Of a stretch of 64,000 nucleotides of DNA, positions 56,931-64,000 are shown piece by piece. Each line of letters starts with the position of its first letter. Position 1 is the stretch's first letter. The notes below the pieces were generated by a model. It did not search any database, was not told where the DNA came from, and was given only the letters and a program-made list of their open reading frames with translations. Location: assembly GCA_019359035.1 (NCBI GenBank), contig JAHHIC010000054.1:62001-126000 (forward strand), written 5' to 3'. Made by a program: the position numbers and the translations under genes. The DNA comes from Scytonematopsis contorta HA4267-MV1. GTDB taxonomy: Bacteria; Cyanobacteriota; Cyanobacteriia; Cyanobacteriales; Nostocaceae.

Positions 56931-57329
56931 TTAGACAAACAAGCTTTCATCCACTTTAAATACTTCAGCAAGTGCTTTTGCTTGATGTTGGCTTATGCTT
57001 ATTTTGCCATTGATTATGTCCAAGACAAGTTCCAATGAACCAAGTACTCCAACTAATCCTTCTGGCTGCATATCACGTGCTTCCATCAAATGTATTAGCA
57101 TTGAATGCGGCGTACCTTTGGGTATTGGGTAATGAGTTTCTTCAAATTTCTCGATTAGCGCCACTAATAATTCTAAGAACGTATCTTCTTCTGGAGTCCG
57201 ATTGGGACGATGTTCTAAATCTTGAGCTACGGCGATAGCTTGCTCATTTTCTGATTCTGTGGTGATTGCTTTCGGCTGATACTTAGCTAATAATTGACCA
57301 TAAAATTCAGCATTAAAAGTACGGGTCAT
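56931..57329 (-). CDS. higA: HigA-type antitoxin
   Basis: 132 aa. The N-terminal part is helical and acidic (about 25-65). The C-terminal part (about 95-130) carries a helix-turn-helix-like section (GVLGSLELVLDIINGKISIS, then HQAKALAEVFKVD). This matches the HigA antitoxin group that represses its own operon and neutralises HigB. It overlaps higB by 17 bp, with the toxin gene first as is usual for higBA. Confidence 0.85.
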   Translation of the reverse strand: MTRTFNAEFYGQLLAKYQPKAITTESENEQAIAVAQDLEHRPNRTPEEDTFLELLVALIEKFEETHYPIPKGTPHSMLIHLMEARDMQPEGLVGVLGSLELVLDIINGKISISQHQAKALAEVFKVDESLFV

Positions 57330-57612
57330 TTTTCCACTTGTCCTTATCGTATTCAGCGTGAGTTAGTACATATTTGATATAAATTCTTTGGTTGGGATAG
57401 ACGATATCAACAATTAGGCGGTAGTGGTTCCCTTTTATATTAAATACAGTAAAATTGCTAACAGCTTCTGCTTTTGGGTAAACCGCCTGGACATCAACAA
57501 TATTTTTCCATTCAGCTTTGGTTGCGACCCTGTACCAATCATAAAGCGCTTCCCTTGCATCTGCGTGTGCTTCGCAAAACTCCCGAAGGATTTTGCGGCT
57601 AATAACGTGCAT
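57313..57612 (-). CDS. higB: HigB-type toxin (mRNA interferase)
   Basis: 99 aa RelE-superfamily protein. MHVISRKILREFCEAH, DWYRVATKAEWKN and NIKGNHYRLIVDI are typical of HigB, which cuts mRNA at the ribosome. NIKGNHYRLI and the basic residues in the C-terminal strand (YIKYVLTHAEYDK) form the active face. It overlaps the antitoxin gene by 17 bp. The start is the ATG at 57612. The operon promoter should lie in 57613-57725. Confidence 0.88.
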   Translation of the reverse strand: MHVISRKILREFCEAHADAREALYDWYRVATKAEWKNIVDVQAVYPKAEAVSNFTVFNIKGNHYRLIVDIVYPNQRIYIKYVLTHAEYDKDKWKNDPYF

Positions 57613-57725
57613 CGTAGGTGTTCATCTTTTCTAAATATAATAGCTAAAAAACTTTTCTCTTACGAGATACTCTTGTGGGGTGGCACGTCCCGCGCCTTGT
57701 GATTGTACTTTATCTCAATTTTTGT

Positions 57726-58364
57726 TCAAGTCCCTTCAAAACTTCGCAAATCTTCTGGCAAATGGTATCTATCTCCCAAAACCTCCAATAATAGTCCACG
57801 CGCATCAAACTTAATTACACTCACCGAAGCCGCTAATACATTAATACGGTTACGGTAGCTTCCTAAATCGATACCCAGCAAGCTGCACAAAATAATTCTA
57901 ATAGTAGCTTTGTGGGAAACAACCAAAACATTGCCTGTAGAATATTTTTGCTGAATTTCCGTGATAACTGGCATTGCTCGGTTCGCAATTTGTACAGATG
58001 TCTCCCCCCCAGTGGGTGGATTCCAAGCTGGTTCGGTTAACCAACGAAGGTAATCATCGGAATAATTTTTCTTGACAAAATCAACCGTTTCCCCTTCCCA
58101 TTTTCCGTAAGCAATTTCCTTTAGACCTTCCCGCAATTGCATTTCCATCCCCAACTTGTCGCATAAGGGTTTGGCTGTGGCAATAGTACGTTTCTTGGGA
58201 CTAGCGTACACAGCATTCCAAGGTAGCGAATGATAATTTTCTGCAAAACCCTTAGCCATTAACTCCCCTTCGGGTGTTAGGTCTGGGTCTAAATCACCGC
58301 AATAACCACCTGTACGACTGTATACGGTTTCACCATGTCGGAGCAAATATACTTTCAGACTCAT
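57726..58364 (-). CDS. Histidine phosphatase family protein (phosphoglycerate mutase-like)
   Basis: 212 aa. LLRHGETVYS contains the catalytic RHG (Arg9-His10-Gly11), with the second His in VVSHKATIRI. YASPKKRTIATAKPL and EIAYGKWEGET are family landmarks. Members include phosphoglycerate mutases, cobalamin phosphatases and other phosphomonoesterases, and the sequence does not decide between them. The start is the ATG at 58364. It is divergent from the lanthipeptide export genes. Confidence 0.87.
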   Translation of the reverse strand: MSLKVYLLRHGETVYSRTGGYCGDLDPDLTPEGELMAKGFAENYHSLPWNAVYASPKKRTIATAKPLCDKLGMEMQLREGLKEIAYGKWEGETVDFVKKNYSDDYLRWLTEPAWNPPTGGETSVQIANRAMPVITEIQQKYSTGNVLVVSHKATIRIILCSLLGIDLGSYRNRINVLAASVSVIKFDARGLLLEVLGDRYHLPEDLRSFEGT

Positions 58365-58687
58365 GTTTTTGCTTGTGGGTGATTGGTTTTGTTGCCGAAA
58401 TGCGCCATATGAGCATGGTTATCTTATATCAAATCCGCTTTGCTTGAATTAAATTTTGTTAAGATTTTGCTTGTCGCAGGTGTATTAAGATTCGTAACCT
58501 GCTTCTCTATAACTTTTTCTCTAAACTATTATGTCATTGTTACTGAGTCTTATATAGTACATACAACATTTATTGTTTCATCTGTAAAGCTATGTGAATT
58601 TAGCTGAAAAATGCGGGAATAATATAGTCATCTCTAATAAAGAGGCTTTTCTTTTCTTGTAAGTGACTTTACATAGGTATACTTTTG
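58365..58687. other. Divergent spacer upstream of the lanthipeptide export genes
   Basis: 323 bp, AT-rich, without repeats or genes. It should contain the promoters of the phosphatase gene and of the HlyD gene; no clear boxes were identified. Confidence 0.5.
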
Positions 58688-60292
58688 ATGAGTAACGAAA
58701 AACTATTTCGCCAAGAGTCTCTAGAGCGGCTATCTTCTCCCGAAAGGCTAGACCAGTTAATGCAAGTAGTTAACCCTAGAGACTGGATACCCCTAACTGC
58801 TTTTGGAGTATTTGTATTTGCAGCTTTAATTTGGAGTATTTTTGGACGAATCCCAATGACGGAGAATACTCAAGGGGTGTTGATTCGTCCGCGAAAAGTG
58901 GTGCAATTTCAGTCAGCTATCGCTGGACAGTTAGAATCTTTAAATGTACGTCAAGGTCAGTGTGTCAAGAAAGGTGAAGTCCTGGCTACAGTTAACCCCT
59001 CTGAAATGAGACAACAACTAGAGCAGCAGCGTAGTAAAAGAGTGCTGTTGATAGCGCAAGCTCAGGATAGTGTTGGACTACAACGTCAACGTATGGGCTT
59101 AGAAAAAAATACTTTAGTTTCGGAGCGTGCTAGTATACAGCAGCGTTTGCAAGCATCACAGCAACTTACACCAGTGATTCAAGAGCAAGATTTACAAGCG
59201 ATTGCTCAACAACGTCAAAGTTTAGTAGAGCGCTTAAGAGCAGCACAAGCATTAACACCAATTTTGCGTAGTAAATCATCTACTGCAATTGCTCAACAAA
59301 GGATTAGTGTAGAACAGCGTTTACGTGACTCGGAAGCTTCTGTACCCATACAAAAAGAAAGATTGGAGAGACGAAAACAGTTGTTTGCAGAAGGAGCAAT
59401 TCCCAGAGAAGGAATCTTAGAAGTTGAACAGCAATATCGTCAAGCTTTACAGCAAGTTTCTGAACTTCGAGCACAATTAAAACAAATTGATGTCCAAGAA
59501 ACTGAAGCACAGCAGCAATATTTAACAAATTTAAATAATATTAGTGAAGTTCAAGCCCAATTAAGAGAGACAACAGTCAGAGAAACACAAGCAAAGCAAA
59601 AATATTTAGAAAATCTTAATGCCATTTCACAGTTACAAACCCAGTTACAAGATATAAATACAAAAGCAACAAGATTACAACAAGAAAATTTAGAAACATC
59701 AAACAGTAAATTAAACGAAATAAAAGAAGTTGAGCGTAATATTGCACAACTAGAGCAAAGATTAAACGAAAATAGTAAAATTGTGAGTACTAATGATGGG
59801 TGTATTTTGGAAGTTACAGCTAATGCTGGGCAAATAGTAAACCCCGGTAGTAGTATTGGCACAATAAACATAGCTGGAGATAGTTCTAAAATGATGGCTA
59901 TCAGCTATTTTTCTGTGGGTAACGGTAAGAAAATTAAACCAGGTATGCAAATTCAAGTTACTCCTGATATGGTAAAACGTGAAAGATTTGGGGGCATAGT
60001 TGGTAAAGTCGTTTCTGTATCATCCTTCCCCGTTACTTCTCAAGGTGCAGCATTGGTATTAGGGAATCAAGAATTAGCCAGCAAGTTAATTTCTAATGAA
60101 CCAAAAATTGAAGTAGTTGCTGAATTAGAAATAGATGAATCTACACCTAGCGGTTATCGTTGGTCTTCTTCTAAAGGACCCAAATTACAAGTGTCTGCTG
60201 GAACAACCACCTCATCTAGAGTACAAGTGGAAAAACAAGTACCAATTACTCTTGTTTTACCAATTTTGAAAGAGTGGACTGGTTTTAATTAA
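58688..60292 (+). CDS. NHLP-type secretion adaptor (HlyD family)
   Basis: 534 aa from the ATG at 58688; a TTG at 58685 precedes it. A short cytoplasmic region with RLDQLMQVVNPRDW comes before one membrane helix (about 40-58). The beta-barrel and lipoyl part follow (VQFQSAIAGQLESLNVRQGQ in parts), then a long coiled coil from about 100 to 370 with repeats of the ALRAQLKQI/QAQLRE type, and a C-terminal beta-barrel (GDSSKMMAISYFSVGNGKKIKPG in parts). It bridges the periplasm as partner of the ABC exporter next to it. The N-terminal RL...QVVxPRDW region is typical of the NHLP bacteriocin group. Confidence 0.88.
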   Translation: MSNEKLFRQESLERLSSPERLDQLMQVVNPRDWIPLTAFGVFVFAALIWSIFGRIPMTENTQGVLIRPRKVVQFQSAIAGQLESLNVRQGQCVKKGEVLATVNPSEMRQQLEQQRSKRVLLIAQAQDSVGLQRQRMGLEKNTLVSERASIQQRLQASQQLTPVIQEQDLQAIAQQRQSLVERLRAAQALTPILRSKSSTAIAQQRISVEQRLRDSEASVPIQKERLERRKQLFAEGAIPREGILEVEQQYRQALQQVSELRAQLKQIDVQETEAQQQYLTNLNNISEVQAQLRETTVRETQAKQKYLENLNAISQLQTQLQDINTKATRLQQENLETSNSKLNEIKEVERNIAQLEQRLNENSKIVSTNDGCILEVTANAGQIVNPGSSIGTINIAGDSSKMMAISYFSVGNGKKIKPGMQIQVTPDMVKRERFGGIVGKVVSVSSFPVTSQGAALVLGNQELASKLISNEPKIEVVAELEIDESTPSGYRWSSSKGPKLQVSAGTTTSSRVQVEKQVPITLVLPILKEWTGFN

Positions 60293-60343
60293 TTGGTAAT
60301 TGGTAATTGGTAATTGGTAATTGGTAATTGGTAATTGGTAATT
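60293..60343. repeat. Heptamer array (STRR), unit AATTGGT
   Basis: Seven units of AATTGGT between the adaptor stop codon and the exporter gene. The upstream extension of the exporter reading frame starts in this array. Confidence 0.9.
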
Positions 60344-60384
60344 ACTGTGTTCAGAATTTTATTCACAATTTAAAACAATTAAAA

Positions 60385-62640
60385 ATGACCAGCAGCAGCA
60401 TAGACACTAAACTTAAAGCTGAACCGAAAGCTAAACCTAAAGTCTACAAGAGAGCTAAAACTCCTACACTTCTACAAATGGAAGCTGTAGAATGTGGTGC
60501 AGCAGCATTAGGAATTATTTTGGGTTATAATGGACGCATTGTCCCACTAGCTGAATTACGGCGAGAATGTGGCGTATCTCGTGATGGCAGTAAAGCTTCT
60601 AATGTTCTCAAAGCTGCTAGACGTTATGGGTTAGAGGCTAAAGGTTATAAGCGTGAGCTTGCTAGTCTTAAAGAGATGCAGCCTCCCTATATAGTTTTCT
60701 GGAATTTTAATCATTTTCTTGTAGTCGAATCTATTGGTCAGGAAAGAGTTTTTTTAAATGACCCTGCTACCGGACCACGTACTGTATCTGTTCAAGAATT
60801 TGATGAAGCTTATACTGGTGTGGTATTAGTTTTTGAAAAAGGAGCAGAGTTTAAAAAAGGTGGACGTAAAGCTAATCTATTTTTGTCTCTTTTAGAAAGA
60901 TTACAAAGTTCGTCTGCTGCGCTCTTGTACTGTATTACAGCTGGATTTCTGTTAGTTCTACCTGGTTTAACTGTACCAGTGTTTAATCAAGTTTTTATTG
61001 ATAATATCATTGTTGAAAATAGATTTGATTGGACGCGCCCATTGCTTATAGCTATGGGATTGACATTATTTTTACAAGCCGGTTTAAATTTTTTACAAAA
61101 ACGTTATCTGCGACAATTGAAAATTAAATTGTCTGTGGGGATGACTAGTAAGTTTCTCTGGCATATTTTGAACTTACCAGCAGGATTTTATGCTCAAAGA
61201 TTTGCTGGGGAAATTAGTAGCCGTGTCAGTATTAATGATAAAGTTGCTGAGATATTGTCTGGTAAATTAGCTACTACTGCGATTGATACAGTAATGCTTA
61301 TTTTTTATGCTATTGTCATGTTTACTTATGACTGGGTACTGACTACAATTGGTATATTTTTTGCAATTGTCAACGTCGTCACTTTACAATTAATATCTAG
61401 ACAACGTGTAGATTCTAATATGCGCTTAGCTCAAGATATGGGTAAAGTTGCTGGGACAGAAATTGCTGGGTTACAGAGCATGGAAACTCTGAAAGCAGGA
61501 GCATTAGAATCTGATTTTTTTGCTCGTTGGGCTGGTTATTATGCTAAAGGTATTAATTCGCTACAAGAACTGTCAGTTACCAACCAGACTGTAGGCGTTT
61601 TACCGTCATTATTAAACTCTCTGACTAATATGTTAGTTTTAATAGTCGGTGGATTGCGCGTTATGGACGGAAACATCAGTATTGGGATGTTAGTCGCTTT
61701 TCAGAGTTTGATGAGTAGTTTTCAAAGTCCTGTGGATTCTCTGGTTAAGTTTGCTGGAGAAATTCAAGAACTTGAAGGAGATATTAACAGAATTGATGAC
61801 GTTTTGAATAACCCTATTGACCCCGAATTAGATAGGATACAAAAAGGTGAAGTTAAACAACACGCATCGCCAATTACTACTTATCGCTTAAAAGGTCACG
61901 TAGAATTAAAAAATGTTACTTTTGGCTATAGTCGTGTAGAAGCTCCTTTGGTTGAAAACTTTAGCATGACCTTGAGACCAGGAGAAAGAGTGGCATTTGT
62001 TGGTGGTAGTGGTTCTGGTAAATCTACTATCGCTAAAGTGATTACTGGTTTGTATCAACCTTGGGAAGGAGAAATATTATTTGACGGTATACCCCGTTCA
62101 CAAATTCCTCGTTCTGTTATCACAAACTCTTTGGCTGTAATAGAACAAGAAATTTTACTTTTCAGTGGCTCTGTGCGAGACAATTTAACTTTGTGGGATG
62201 ACACAATACCTGATGGACAGTTAGTCAAGGCTTGTATGGATGCAGCGATTCACGAAATAGTGATGGCATTACCTGGTGGATATAATGGGGAACTGATGGA
62301 AGGAGCGGGAAATTTAAGTGGGGGACAGCGCCAACGTTTAGAGATTGCTCGTGCTTTAGTGAATAATCCTTCAATCTTAGTGATGGATGAAGCAACCAGC
62401 GCTCTCGATACAGAATCGGAGTCAATGATTGACCAAAATCTTCGTAGACGTGGATGTTCTTGTATTATTGTCGCTCACCGCTTAAGCACTATTCGCGATT
62501 GCGATGAGATTATCGTTATGGAAAGAGGTAAAGTTGTCCAACGCGGTACTCATGAACAATTATGGGCTATGGGTGGATATTATGCAAACTTAATTAAATC
62601 GGAAGAATCTAAAAAACAAGAAGCTTTAGCCTCCATTTAA
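60385..62640 (+). CDS. NHLP-type bacteriocin ABC exporter with C39 leader peptidase
   Basis: 751 aa from the ATG at 60385; a frame from 60328 reads through the repeat. Residues about 25-150 are a C39 protease: catalytic Cys37 in LQMEAVECGAAAL, His in NFNHFLVVE and Asp in LNDPATGP. Next come the membrane domain (about 175-460) and the ATPase domain with Walker A GGSGSGKST, LSGGQRQRLEIARA, Walker B LVMDEATSALD and VAHRLST. It cuts the precursor after Gly-Gly and exports the product. The precursor gene downstream has a fitting Gly-Gly site, and the HlyD adaptor is directly upstream. Confidence 0.92.
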   Translation: MTSSSIDTKLKAEPKAKPKVYKRAKTPTLLQMEAVECGAAALGIILGYNGRIVPLAELRRECGVSRDGSKASNVLKAARRYGLEAKGYKRELASLKEMQPPYIVFWNFNHFLVVESIGQERVFLNDPATGPRTVSVQEFDEAYTGVVLVFEKGAEFKKGGRKANLFLSLLERLQSSSAALLYCITAGFLLVLPGLTVPVFNQVFIDNIIVENRFDWTRPLLIAMGLTLFLQAGLNFLQKRYLRQLKIKLSVGMTSKFLWHILNLPAGFYAQRFAGEISSRVSINDKVAEILSGKLATTAIDTVMLIFYAIVMFTYDWVLTTIGIFFAIVNVVTLQLISRQRVDSNMRLAQDMGKVAGTEIAGLQSMETLKAGALESDFFARWAGYYAKGINSLQELSVTNQTVGVLPSLLNSLTNMLVLIVGGLRVMDGNISIGMLVAFQSLMSSFQSPVDSLVKFAGEIQELEGDINRIDDVLNNPIDPELDRIQKGEVKQHASPITTYRLKGHVELKNVTFGYSRVEAPLVENFSMTLRPGERVAFVGGSGSGKSTIAKVITGLYQPWEGEILFDGIPRSQIPRSVITNSLAVIEQEILLFSGSVRDNLTLWDDTIPDGQLVKACMDAAIHEIVMALPGGYNGELMEGAGNLSGGQRQRLEIARALVNNPSILVMDEATSALDTESESMIDQNLRRRGCSCIIVAHRLSTIRDCDEIIVMERGKVVQRGTHEQLWAMGGYYANLIKSEESKKQEALASI

Positions 62641-62645
62641 ATGTA

Positions 62646-62667
62646 GAGACGTTACATGTAACGTCTC
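62646..62667. repeat. 22-bp perfect palindrome (GAGACGTTACA family)
   Basis: Six bases after the exporter stop codon. Same family as 43563-43590, whose arms are 3 bp longer. It may terminate the export operon. Confidence 0.85.
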
Positions 62668-62700
62668 ATTCATAAACATGACATGTAACCCTTAATGTCA

Positions 62701-62796
62701 AGACGCGATTAATCCATAATGTAGAGACGCGATTAATCCATAATGTAGAGACGCGATTAATCCATAATGTAGAGACGCTATTAATCGCGTCTCTAC
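62701..62796. repeat. Tandem expansion of a palindrome half (3 x 24 bp plus complete hairpin)
   Basis: Three identical 24-bp units (AGACGCGATTAATC plus CATAATGTAG, at 62701, 62725 and 62749) are followed by AGACGCTATTAATCGCGTCTCTAC, which completes a near copy of the 26-bp palindrome with one mismatch. Repeat growth has taken place from one arm. Confidence 0.88.
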
Positions 62797-62934
62797 CAGG
62801 GTTGCAAAATAAACAATACTATTTTGATTATCGCCTTATTACTAAATAAGGTGCTATTTATAGTAACAGTTATAACTTAGATTATGCAATATTTTTCGCA
62901 CTTTATTTACAAAAAATCAAATTTTATTCTTATC

Positions 62935-62964
62935 TTGACGTTTGATAATTACCTTGATTACACT
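62935..62964 (+). promoter_or_regulatory. Possible promoter of the precursor gene
   Basis: TTGACG (62935-62940) and TACACT (62959-62964) with an 18-bp spacer, about 100 bp before the ATG at 63066. The match to the sigma-70 consensus is fair (5/6 and 4/6). Confidence 0.4.
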
Positions 62965-63065
62965 GTGGAGGTCGGTAGCAAAAGATGCAATTGTAAAAGA
63001 TATATTAACAATTGCTATTTCTCTTTACCGCTTCAAACTCTCATATCAATCAAATCGTAAATAAC

Positions 63066-63422
63066 ATGAGCGAACAATCTATTTCCCGCGACGAAATCCA
63101 ATCTAAGATTCTTATCAAAGCGTTAGAAAATTCTGAATTCAGACAACAATTGTTGAGCAATCCAACTGCAGCAAAAGAAGCTGTTGAACAAGAGATTGGT
63201 CAAAAGCTTCCAGATGCTTTCAATGTTAAAGTACTCCAAGAAACAGAAGATACAGTTTACTTGGTTATGCCTTGTATTCCTGATGCTTCAGGTGAGTTGT
63301 CTGATTCAGAACTAGAAGCTGTAGCTGGTGGAAGCAGAAAGAGAAACTGTGTAACTGGTGCTACTATCCGCGTAGACTGTGCATTTGGTTCAGTTTGTGT
63401 TCTCACAAACAGAGGTTTATAA
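63066..63422 (+). CDS. Lanthipeptide precursor with NHLP (nitrile-hydratase-like) leader
   Basis: 118 aa from the ATG at 63066; the frame runs up to a TTG at 63012. Residues 1-89 form the leader: helical ISRDEIQSKILIKAL, ENSEFRQQLLSNPTAAKE, GQKLPDAFNVKV, ETEDTVYLVMP, then SDSELEAVAGG, the classical C39 cut site. The predicted core is residues 90-118 with Cys95, Cys105 and Cys111, Thr97, Thr100 and Thr114, and Ser90 and Ser109: enough for up to three thioether rings. The NHLP leader is known from class II lanthipeptides and related peptides. A LanM-type gene follows. Ring pattern and activity are unknown. Confidence 0.9.
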   Translation: MSEQSISRDEIQSKILIKALENSEFRQQLLSNPTAAKEAVEQEIGQKLPDAFNVKVLQETEDTVYLVMPCIPDASGELSDSELEAVAGGSRKRNCVTGATIRVDCAFGSVCVLTNRGL

Positions 63423-63494
63423 TCAAAATCTTACCTACCTAAATATGATATTTCAGGTTATTTAAAATCTAAAACTTATCATATTAGCCCTTTC

Positions 63495-63522
63495 AAGAGG
63501 GACGGAAAAATCCGTCCTTCTT
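63495..63522 (+). terminator. Hairpin between precursor and synthetase genes (attenuator-like)
   Basis: AAGAGGGACGGA pairs with TCCGTCCTTCTT (12 bp, one G-U) around a 4-nt A loop, 70 bp after the precursor stop. It has only a weak T-rich tail. Such partial terminators are common after lantibiotic structural genes and keep the synthetase level low. Confidence 0.65.
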
Positions 63523-63592
63523 TGATTGTTTGAGCAACTCAAGAATATTACCCAACTTTTCATCAGCAAATCAGCAACAAAGTTTAACTTGT

Positions 63593-64000
63593 ATGCGAGT
63601 AAAGCAAGAATACCTAAATAAGATAATCGATAAATCTAGTACAGTTAGTGAACGTTTACAGAGTGAATTTTTACCAGAAAATACACCAGAGAATGAGCGT
63701 TTAATTGATTCTAGAATGGAAGCATGGTGCAAAACTGTTGCTGGTGGTAATAAGGATTTATTGGAAAAACGTTTTGCATGGGATAAATTAGATTTAAATT
63801 TAGTACGTAATGTATTAGGTTCCGGAAGTATAAGTGATATAGAATCTTTACCAGACTGGGCAGAAATTTTAAAGGATGTTCTGGAAGCAACTCCAAATGA
63901 ATACACTACAGAAAATGACCGTTGTTTAGACTTACAAGAACCATTACCTTTTGAAGAATTATTTTTACCTTTTATTAAAGTTGCTCGCGAGAAGTTACAA
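63593..64000 (+). CDS. LanM-type lanthipeptide synthetase, N-terminal part (runs off the window)
   Basis: Only the first 136 codons are present and the frame is open to base 64000. The sequence (RMEAWCKTVAGGN, LEKRFAWDKLDLNLV, LPDWAEILKDVLEA, LPFEELFLPFIKVAREKL) matches the start of the DUF4135 dehydratase domain of class II synthetases, where the W...K/C...G and F-P-F-x-x-x-A pattern is conserved. The full enzyme is usually about 1000 aa with a zinc cyclase at the end; that end is not visible. The ATG at 63593 has no clear ribosome-binding site; a TTG in frame at 63530 is an alternative. Confidence 0.82.
   Translation, partial: MRVKQEYLNKIIDKSSTVSERLQSEFLPENTPENERLIDSRMEAWCKTVAGGNKDLLEKRFAWDKLDLNLVRNVLGSGSISDIESLPDWAEILKDVLEATPNEYTTENDRCLDLQEPLPFEELFLPFIKVAREKLQ

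Follow-up and report, generated by a model that had tools for sequence, protein, structure and literature searches.

Gene content of the locus

The window analyzed here is a 64,000-nucleotide stretch of the Scytonematopsis contorta HA4267-MV1 genome (10.66 Mb), corresponding to positions 62001-126000 of contig JAHHIC010000054.1 (C54). At its 3' end begins a locus that, judged by its gene families, is a complete canonical NHLP-type class II lanthipeptide cluster (Table 1). The locus was followed onto the contig continuation L007 (C54:119000-138999; window position = L007 position + 56999), which is identical to the window over their overlap (window positions 57000-64000). An earlier, sequence-only reading had interpreted four same-direction genes at the end of the window as a class II lanthipeptide locus with an NHLP leader and its own C39 exporter. 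This was borne out: all four genes lie on the + strand where they had been placed, and TIGRFAM and Pfam matches above cut-off assign them to curated families. As four adjoining genes each match their own curated family, chance is ruled out as an explanation.

The NHLM export set is complete at the locus, with HlyD (TIGR03794), ABC1 (TIGR03796) and ABC2 (TIGR03797) each scoring above cut-off. The C39 exporter (ABC1) has full-length relatives among solved structures (4ry2 and 8vp3, "ABC-type bacteriocin transporter") and is predicted to cut after Gly-Gly and export the peptide. ABC2 starts 2.4 kb past LanM, and two genes on the opposite strand, encoding a GNAT and a TerB-type protein, lie in between. 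The suggestion of the sequence-only reading that further genes may lie past base 64000 thus holds for gene content (tandem GNAT, TerB-type protein, second NHLM ATPase), while action of the GNAT on the core peptide stays a prediction. No RNA family reached its gathering score within the 64-kb window.

Table 1. Features of the lanthipeptide locus and its continuation (window positions, unless prefixed with L007)
Feature	Position	Strand	Details
HlyD-type membrane-fusion protein, NHLM export	58688..60292	+	534 aa; TIGR03794 NHLM_micro_HlyD, 361.9 bits (cut-off 156.2), E 4.5e-108
Heptamer TAATTGG x 7.7, between HlyD and exporter genes	60290..60343		Tandem Repeats Finder; 100% matches
C39 peptidase/permease/ATPase exporter	60385..62640	+	751 aa; TIGR03796, 1159.6 bits (cut-off 853.3); PF03412 (Peptidase_C39), E 4e-33; PF00664; PF00005
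24-bp unit x 4.2, between exporter and precursor	62686..62786		Tandem Repeats Finder
Precursor gene	63066-63422	+	118 aa
NHLP leader, residues 1-89, end ...LEAVAGG	63066..63332	+	TIGR03793 leader_NHLP, 80.4 bits (cut-off 50.9), E 6.6e-23; PF02979 NHase_alpha, 34.8 bits (cut-off 27.2), E 1.4e-8
Core peptide, 29 residues	63333..63419	+	Translation: Cys 6/16/22, Thr 8/11/25, Ser 1/20, Lys 3
C-A-F-G-S, predicted Cys16-Ser20 lanthionine	63378..63392	+	Clade motif, spacing enrichment, MppE precedent
LanM, in-window start	63593..64000, continues to L007:9854 (= 66853)	+	1086 aa
GNAT	L007:10100-11008	-	Beyond window; 302 aa
TerB-type protein	L007:11132-12274	-	Beyond window; PF05099 in two stretches
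ABC2 ATPase, second NHLM ATPase	L007:12293-15061	+	Beyond window; TIGR03797, 973 bits (cut-off 709)
DUF7005 (PF22541) protein	L007:15478-16665	-	Beyond window
Nif11-type precursor	L007:16957-17304	-	Beyond window; PF07862 above cut-off; TIGR03798, 31.0 bits (just under cut-off 32.3)

LanM and its clade

The LanM matches TIGR03897 with 977.6 bits (cut-off, 304) and contains DUF4135 (PF13575; E 6.6e-125) and LANC_like (PF05147; E 1e-64) domains. The latter is the LanC-like cyclase domain that was to be sought past base 64000, and it is present in the continuation of the gene on the same contig; the whole genome contains six LANC_like matches. Of two candidate start codons, ATG 63593 is more likely than TTG 63530, as it aligns with the first Met of the relatives L043 and L044.

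The zinc ligands read as Cys-Cys-Cys (in WCHG and LCCGN), and the catalytic His of the cyclase is also kept. In an alignment of 55 LanM sequences, two of them incomplete in this region, 49, 51 and 50 sequences have Cys at the respective zinc positions. The best match among solved structures is LicM2, which has CHG where the LanM described here has CCG. Three Cys zinc ligands have been described as the mark of the ProcM clade, for which ring closure in either direction is reported (PMC13060382; PMC10027976), and by its sequence the LanM has this ProcM-clade set. One of these studies states that Nif11-type leaders are associated only with CCG LanM enzymes, and NHLP leaders occurred with CHG LanM enzymes in its own data set (PMC10027976). 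Here, an NHLP leader is paired with a CCG LanM, and the same pairing occurs in the relatives L043, L044, L063 and L066.

Among the 217 genomes of the family, the closest LanM relatives share 51-56% identity; among named records, the closest are from Nostoc, Calothrix and Mastigocoleus. In a tree that includes L063 and L125, the LanM falls in a clade of eight loci with a local support of 1.0. The eighth locus, L125, lies on a 9-kb Phormidesmis contig on which no precursor was found. A search for LanM relatives on viral contigs returned 34 stretches that fit the LanM pattern, none of which was a true relative.

Several LanM enzymes outside this locus have lost zinc ligands (L038:3310-6603 on contig C58 of the same genome, L057 and L102), and the cores are Cys-less in all three of these loci with a precursor found. 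At loci with an intact C-C-C LanM, a Cys-bearing core was present in 32/32. An exception to the pairing of zinc loss with Cys-less cores is L093, where the LanM reads C-C-Y and the core has Cys. The LanM enzymes that lost zinc ligands may be dehydratase-only enzymes. Separately, a gene of the aldo/keto reductase family (PF00248, above cut-off) lies directly 3' of LanM at L103:3012-4028 (this genome, C58) and L066:9738-10745 (Mastigocoleus); it is possibly a reductase for dehydro residues.

Core peptide and predicted ring direction

The precursor has matches in three places in the genome (C54, C58 and C67); the locus itself has a single NHLP precursor, Nif11-type precursors being outside this count. 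The composition of the core given by the sequence-only reading (residues 90-118; three Cys, three Thr, two Ser) was the same in our translation. The core, SRKRNCVTGATIRVDCAFGSVCVLTNRGL, contains a single Lys, and its linear form has a predicted isoelectric point of 9.8. Of 388 genomes drawn from the order, 50 have a match to the precursor. Outside this genome the best match shares 46% identity over residues 2-115, and none of them therefore has the same core. Six exact core strings, including CAFGSVC, were sought in 5.39 million papers (supplements not covered) and none was found, which is weak evidence of absence. Plasmid records likewise supplied no product name: there were three precursor matches (all <40% identity), 196 LanM matches (best among those listed, 46%) and 10 GNAT matches (best, 37%).

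A five-residue motif, C-x-[FLM]-[GF]-S, was found in the cores of all seven LanM-clade loci with a found precursor (7/7, a count that does not include L125). It reads CAFGS here, CTFFS in Nostoc sp. FACHB-152, CTFGS in Mastigocoleus testarum, CHFGS in L093, CMFGS in N. punctiforme NIES-2108 and the genome's own C58 locus, and CILGS and CMMGS in Calothrix NIES-3974. The core is similar to that of Nostoc sp. FACHB-152, GLTLRVDCTFFSLCITTSKCL, and both have RVD before the motif. An N-terminal SRKRN stretch is present in the core described here and in none of the other clade cores.

Cys-to-Ser/Thr spacing was compared with that of shuffled cores in 14 spacing-and-direction classes. The test covered 36 LanM loci, 30 of them with a found precursor. 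The core set omits refetched copies (L058-L062, L101), loci with a LanM of <1040 bits (except L039) and the L093 core, which was found later; kinship among loci stays in the counts in these shuffles. Cys-x3-Ser/Thr was the sole outstanding class, present in 38 of 53 distinct Cys-bearing cores (14.6 expected; 0/5000 shuffles) and in 21/30 when one core was taken per locus (8.8 expected; 0/5000 shuffles). The mirror arrangement, Ser/Thr-x3-Cys, was depleted (6/53, compared with 14.6 expected). Such a ring has a precedent: MppM links Cys79 to Ser83 in the MppE core ACWRWSG, with Cys N-terminal to Ser (PMC11791876). From this enrichment and the MppE precedent, we therefore predict a lanthionine ring between Cys16 and Ser20, with Cys N-terminal to its partner, and consider this ring more probable than not.

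Two further observations concern related cores. At L076:2781-6333, 13 short precursors are arranged in tandem, most of them with the near-same core VCLGWSFAKVCVAWSFARNANKSV. Furthermore, many related cores share a similar NANxxV tail that is follower-like in appearance.

GNAT and predicted lipidation

The GNAT was modeled with high confidence (predicted local distance difference test [pLDDT] score, 91.5) and matches tandem GNAT proteins along its length, with 5kf1 (Z 17.7; root mean square deviation, 5.1; 265 residues) and VipF (Z 15.9; root mean square deviation, 3.9; 263 residues) among the structural matches. The published account of NpuN, from the nostolysamide pathway, likewise calls it a tandem GNAT and sets it beside VipF; members of its GNAT group are accompanied by NHLP or Nif11 precursors (PMC13060382). 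In the family genomes, homologues scoring >285 bits occupy 14 places, all ≤10 kb from LanM or NHLM export genes; a LanM or NHLM transporter gene lies in the stretch at 13 of these, and at the 14th a LanM is 8.9 kb away. Among loci scoring <240 bits, only 1/24 has a LanM or NHLM transporter in the stretch, several of these stretches being short due to contig ends; the 24 include neither six further places in this score range nor a broken copy in L172. By both genomic context and tandem GNAT fold, a GNAT of the RiPP-associated kind (RiPP, ribosomally synthesized and posttranslationally modified peptide) is present in the cluster.

GNAT-linked precursors tend to have a Lys near the start of the core. 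A Lys was found in the first four core residues of 12/14 GNAT-linked precursors compared with 9/53 unlinked cores (P = 3e-6) or, counted by locus, in 9/10 and 8/27, respectively (P = 0.0015). Beyond the loci omitted from the spacing test, this comparison leaves out L167 (leader end AGA; core Lys2), L168, L173 and L176 (no precursor found), and L049 and L086 (copies of L177 and L178). Two GNAT-linked loci have cores that start with Lys (KRRECPSDTRFTFC... and KGRSCPSDTRFTFC...), and in nostolysamide Lys1 is the acylated residue (PMC13060382). GNAT-carrying LanM enzymes occupy four places in a LanM tree built without L063, and the gene has therefore been combined with different LanM enzymes. For the core described here, acylation at Lys3 to give a selidamide-like product has about equal chances of being right and wrong; the odds are only even because no such GNAT was found at the loci with the closest LanM enzymes.

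More distant GNAT proteins at L181, L183 and L184 are encoded near small Gly-Gly proteins with Lys within the first three core residues (e.g., KGSSNSNRSREESNPRRSGAGAFVMGIRG) and with no LanM in the stretch. These are possibly another family of acylated RiPPs.

Proposed pathway and alternative explanations

The locus very probably encodes a working lanthipeptide pathway. In this pathway, LanM would bind the leader and dehydrate up to five Ser/Thr residues. Addition of Cys thiols to these would then close as many as three thioether rings, Cys16-Ser20 among them. The GNAT would move an acyl group from acyl-coenzyme A onto Lys3, the sole Lys of the core, and the C39 exporter would cut after Gly-Gly, with secretion of the peptide through HlyD. 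Candidate roles for the product are membrane-active or signaling ones. Taken as a whole, an NHLP/NHLM class II cluster with a predicted ring and GNAT acylation is the interpretation that we hold to be likely.

Several points weigh against this interpretation, most of them concerning acylation. The GNAT gene lies on the strand opposite to the lanthipeptide genes, and none was seen in the stretches around the seven remaining clade loci, several of them truncated at a contig end; for these reasons the GNAT may not act on this core. The L093 core has Lys4 with no GNAT in the stretch, and the likeness of the GNAT to NpuN was drawn from the published description of the latter and not from its sequence. 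The Lys comparison was post hoc, devised after the cores had been seen; the two L174 precursors, which are identical, enter the GNAT-linked count separately (11/13 if taken as one), and the loci are kin by descent, so that the P values overstate the association. Furthermore, the GNAT-linked precursors that were scanned are Nif11-type (5/5), those of L177 and L178 show NHLP likeness only by comparison with the precursor of this locus, and a second, Nif11-type precursor lies downstream of the GNAT-TerB-ABC2 block. L170 and L171, from two genera, carry this block with Nif11-type precursors (above cut-off) and no LanM in the stretch. Given these Nif11-type partners, the LanM-less blocks and the clade loci without a GNAT, the GNAT may serve another peptide. 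The product would then be a plain, nonlipidated lanthipeptide, and the GNAT-TerB-ABC2-DUF7005 block would belong to a second RiPP pathway that acts on the downstream Nif11-type precursor and shares the exporter. We regard this as a serious alternative, if somewhat short of an even chance. Against it stand the lack of Lys among residues 1-17 of the downstream Nif11-type core, unlike the N-terminal Lys of most GNAT-linked cores, and the presence of this GNAT at LanM loci elsewhere in the LanM tree, at three other places. The N-terminal SRKRN stretch, peculiar to the lanthipeptide core of this locus within its clade, also counts against it.

With respect to ring topology, neither Cys6 nor Cys22 has a partner at the favored spacing, which also counts against the interpretation preferred here. 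Cys16 could instead be joined to the upstream Thr8 or Thr11, both available in the core, in the usual direction, since most LanM enzymes form rings in which dehydroalanine or dehydrobutyrine is N-terminal to Cys (PMC13060382); C-x3-S would then be kept for enzyme docking, target binding or another cause. However, no Ser/Thr precedes the motif Cys in two of the clade cores, FFRLPCTFGSITFKF and INFKIPCHFGSATITNGLRIH, and the usual ring direction is therefore closed to them; WTLPCMFGSRTIHI has only Thr2. This argument is not valid for every member, as ATVGISCMFGS and the longer clade cores do carry upstream Ser/Thr. The depletion of Ser/Thr-x3-Cys and the reported closure of rings both ways by the C-C-C LanM clade (PMC13060382) likewise argue for Cys16-Ser20, and linkage of Cys16 to an upstream Thr appears unlikely. 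It is more improbable still that the cluster is decayed or silent, with intact genes that are unexpressed or unproductive. Although sequence is no proof of expression and tandem repeats occupy two of the spacers, none of the five proteins for lanthipeptide synthesis and export is truncated, all score above curated cut-offs, and the cyclase retains its zinc ligands and catalytic His.

Novelty and significance

The sequence-only reading held that the product may be new. This stands insofar as none of the other genomes among the 388 drawn from the order has the same core and CAFGSVC was not found in papers, although the locus may already be listed in published genome-mining tables; the kind of pathway has already been described. 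From its sequence, the peptide thus looks new, and the pathway kind is known. The Cys-x3-Ser ring type is known from MppE, and the set of NHLP precursor, LanM, GNAT and transporters is known from phaeornamide. The pairing of this LanM clade with C-x-[FLM]-[GF]-S cores was not found in print, but the literature search was limited and this is weak evidence. A bolder proposal, which we consider possible but doubtful, is that the loci of Nostoc, Calothrix, Mastigocoleus and this genome, joined by one LanM clade, represent an unnamed cyanobacterial lanthipeptide family. Its unit would be a ring of five residues, Cys-x-[FLM]-[GF]-Ser, with the Cys at the N-terminal end, and the SRKRN arm and a Lys-lipidating GNAT would have been gained here to give a cationic lipo-lanthipeptide. 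If the predictions are correct, the cluster tests whether core spacing (Cys-x3-Ser) alone sets ring direction in C-C-C LanM enzymes, as well as what rule selects the acylated Lys in GNAT-bearing lanthipeptides, and it adds a new candidate to the lipidated cyclic peptides. What is generally understood of NHLP lanthipeptides is unchanged by it.

Neighboring genes

The TerB-type gene and ABC2 are divergent, with a spacer of <20 bp, and a TerB homologue is also divergent next to ABC2 in L170 and L171. The Nif11-type precursor at L007:16957-17304 has a Gly-Gly site and a Cys-less core, IAANTIASLSNILPIISKLPSINTYTSHSLVF. The HECTH motif of the DUF7005 protein (L007:15478-16665) was invariant in all 10 aligned sequences (10/10), and at least 48 of 68 copies in the 217 family genomes lie ≤15 kb from an NHLM exporter or LanM. 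The name DUF7005 was not found in a literature search. Assignment to an enzyme of known fold was rejected, as the sequences of solved structures gave a chance match only (E 0.48); Foldseek gave no match at E <0.001 with a weak model (pLDDT, 73). It is possible that DUF7005 is a new RiPP-associated metalloenzyme, perhaps a leader protease.

Comparison with known systems

Loci with NHLP, an NHLM transporter and LanM were described in Nostoc sp. PCC 7120 and N. punctiforme by Haft et al. in 2010 (PMC2887384). As here, an NHLP leader with a Gly-Gly end adjoins LanM at these loci, and ABC transporter genes adjoin too in PCC 7120. They differ in their core and in the tandem GNAT and TerB-type genes that lie between LanM and ABC2 here. 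The nostolysamide (npu) cluster shares with this locus a C-C-C LanM, a Gly-Gly leader, a C39 exporter, a tandem GNAT and a Lys near the N terminus of the core (PMC13060382). However, the npu leader is Nif11-type and not NHLP, NpuA is acylated at Lys1 whereas the sole Lys here is Lys3, and the npu core contains four Cys compared with three. The L174 and L175 cores were judged nostolysamide-like by eye, and their LanM enzymes fall in another part of the tree than the LanM of this locus.

Phaeornamide, a selidamide, is likewise made from an NHLP precursor with a LanM, a GNAT and three transporter genes (PMC9505594). It differs in coming from an alphaproteobacterium and in its arginase and hydroxylase, with the acyl group on hydroxy-ornithine; neither of these two enzymes was among the nine proteins scanned here. 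MppE/MppM of Moorena producens resembles the prediction for this core in its Cys-x3-Ser lanthionine with Cys N-terminal (PMC11791876). In contrast to this locus, that system has a Nif11 leader, a 7-residue core, a halogenase, a prenyltransferase and transporters without a peptidase domain. The locus of Nostoc sp. FACHB-152 (L063/L105) has a LanM that is 54-55% identical, an NHLP leader and a core with RVDC-x-F-x-S-x-C in common with the one described here, and HlyD/ABC1/ABC2-like genes were recognized by eye in the same run. It differs in its two same-core precursors, in a leader that ends in AAG, in a stretch that carries no GNAT and in a core that has no SRKRN stretch.

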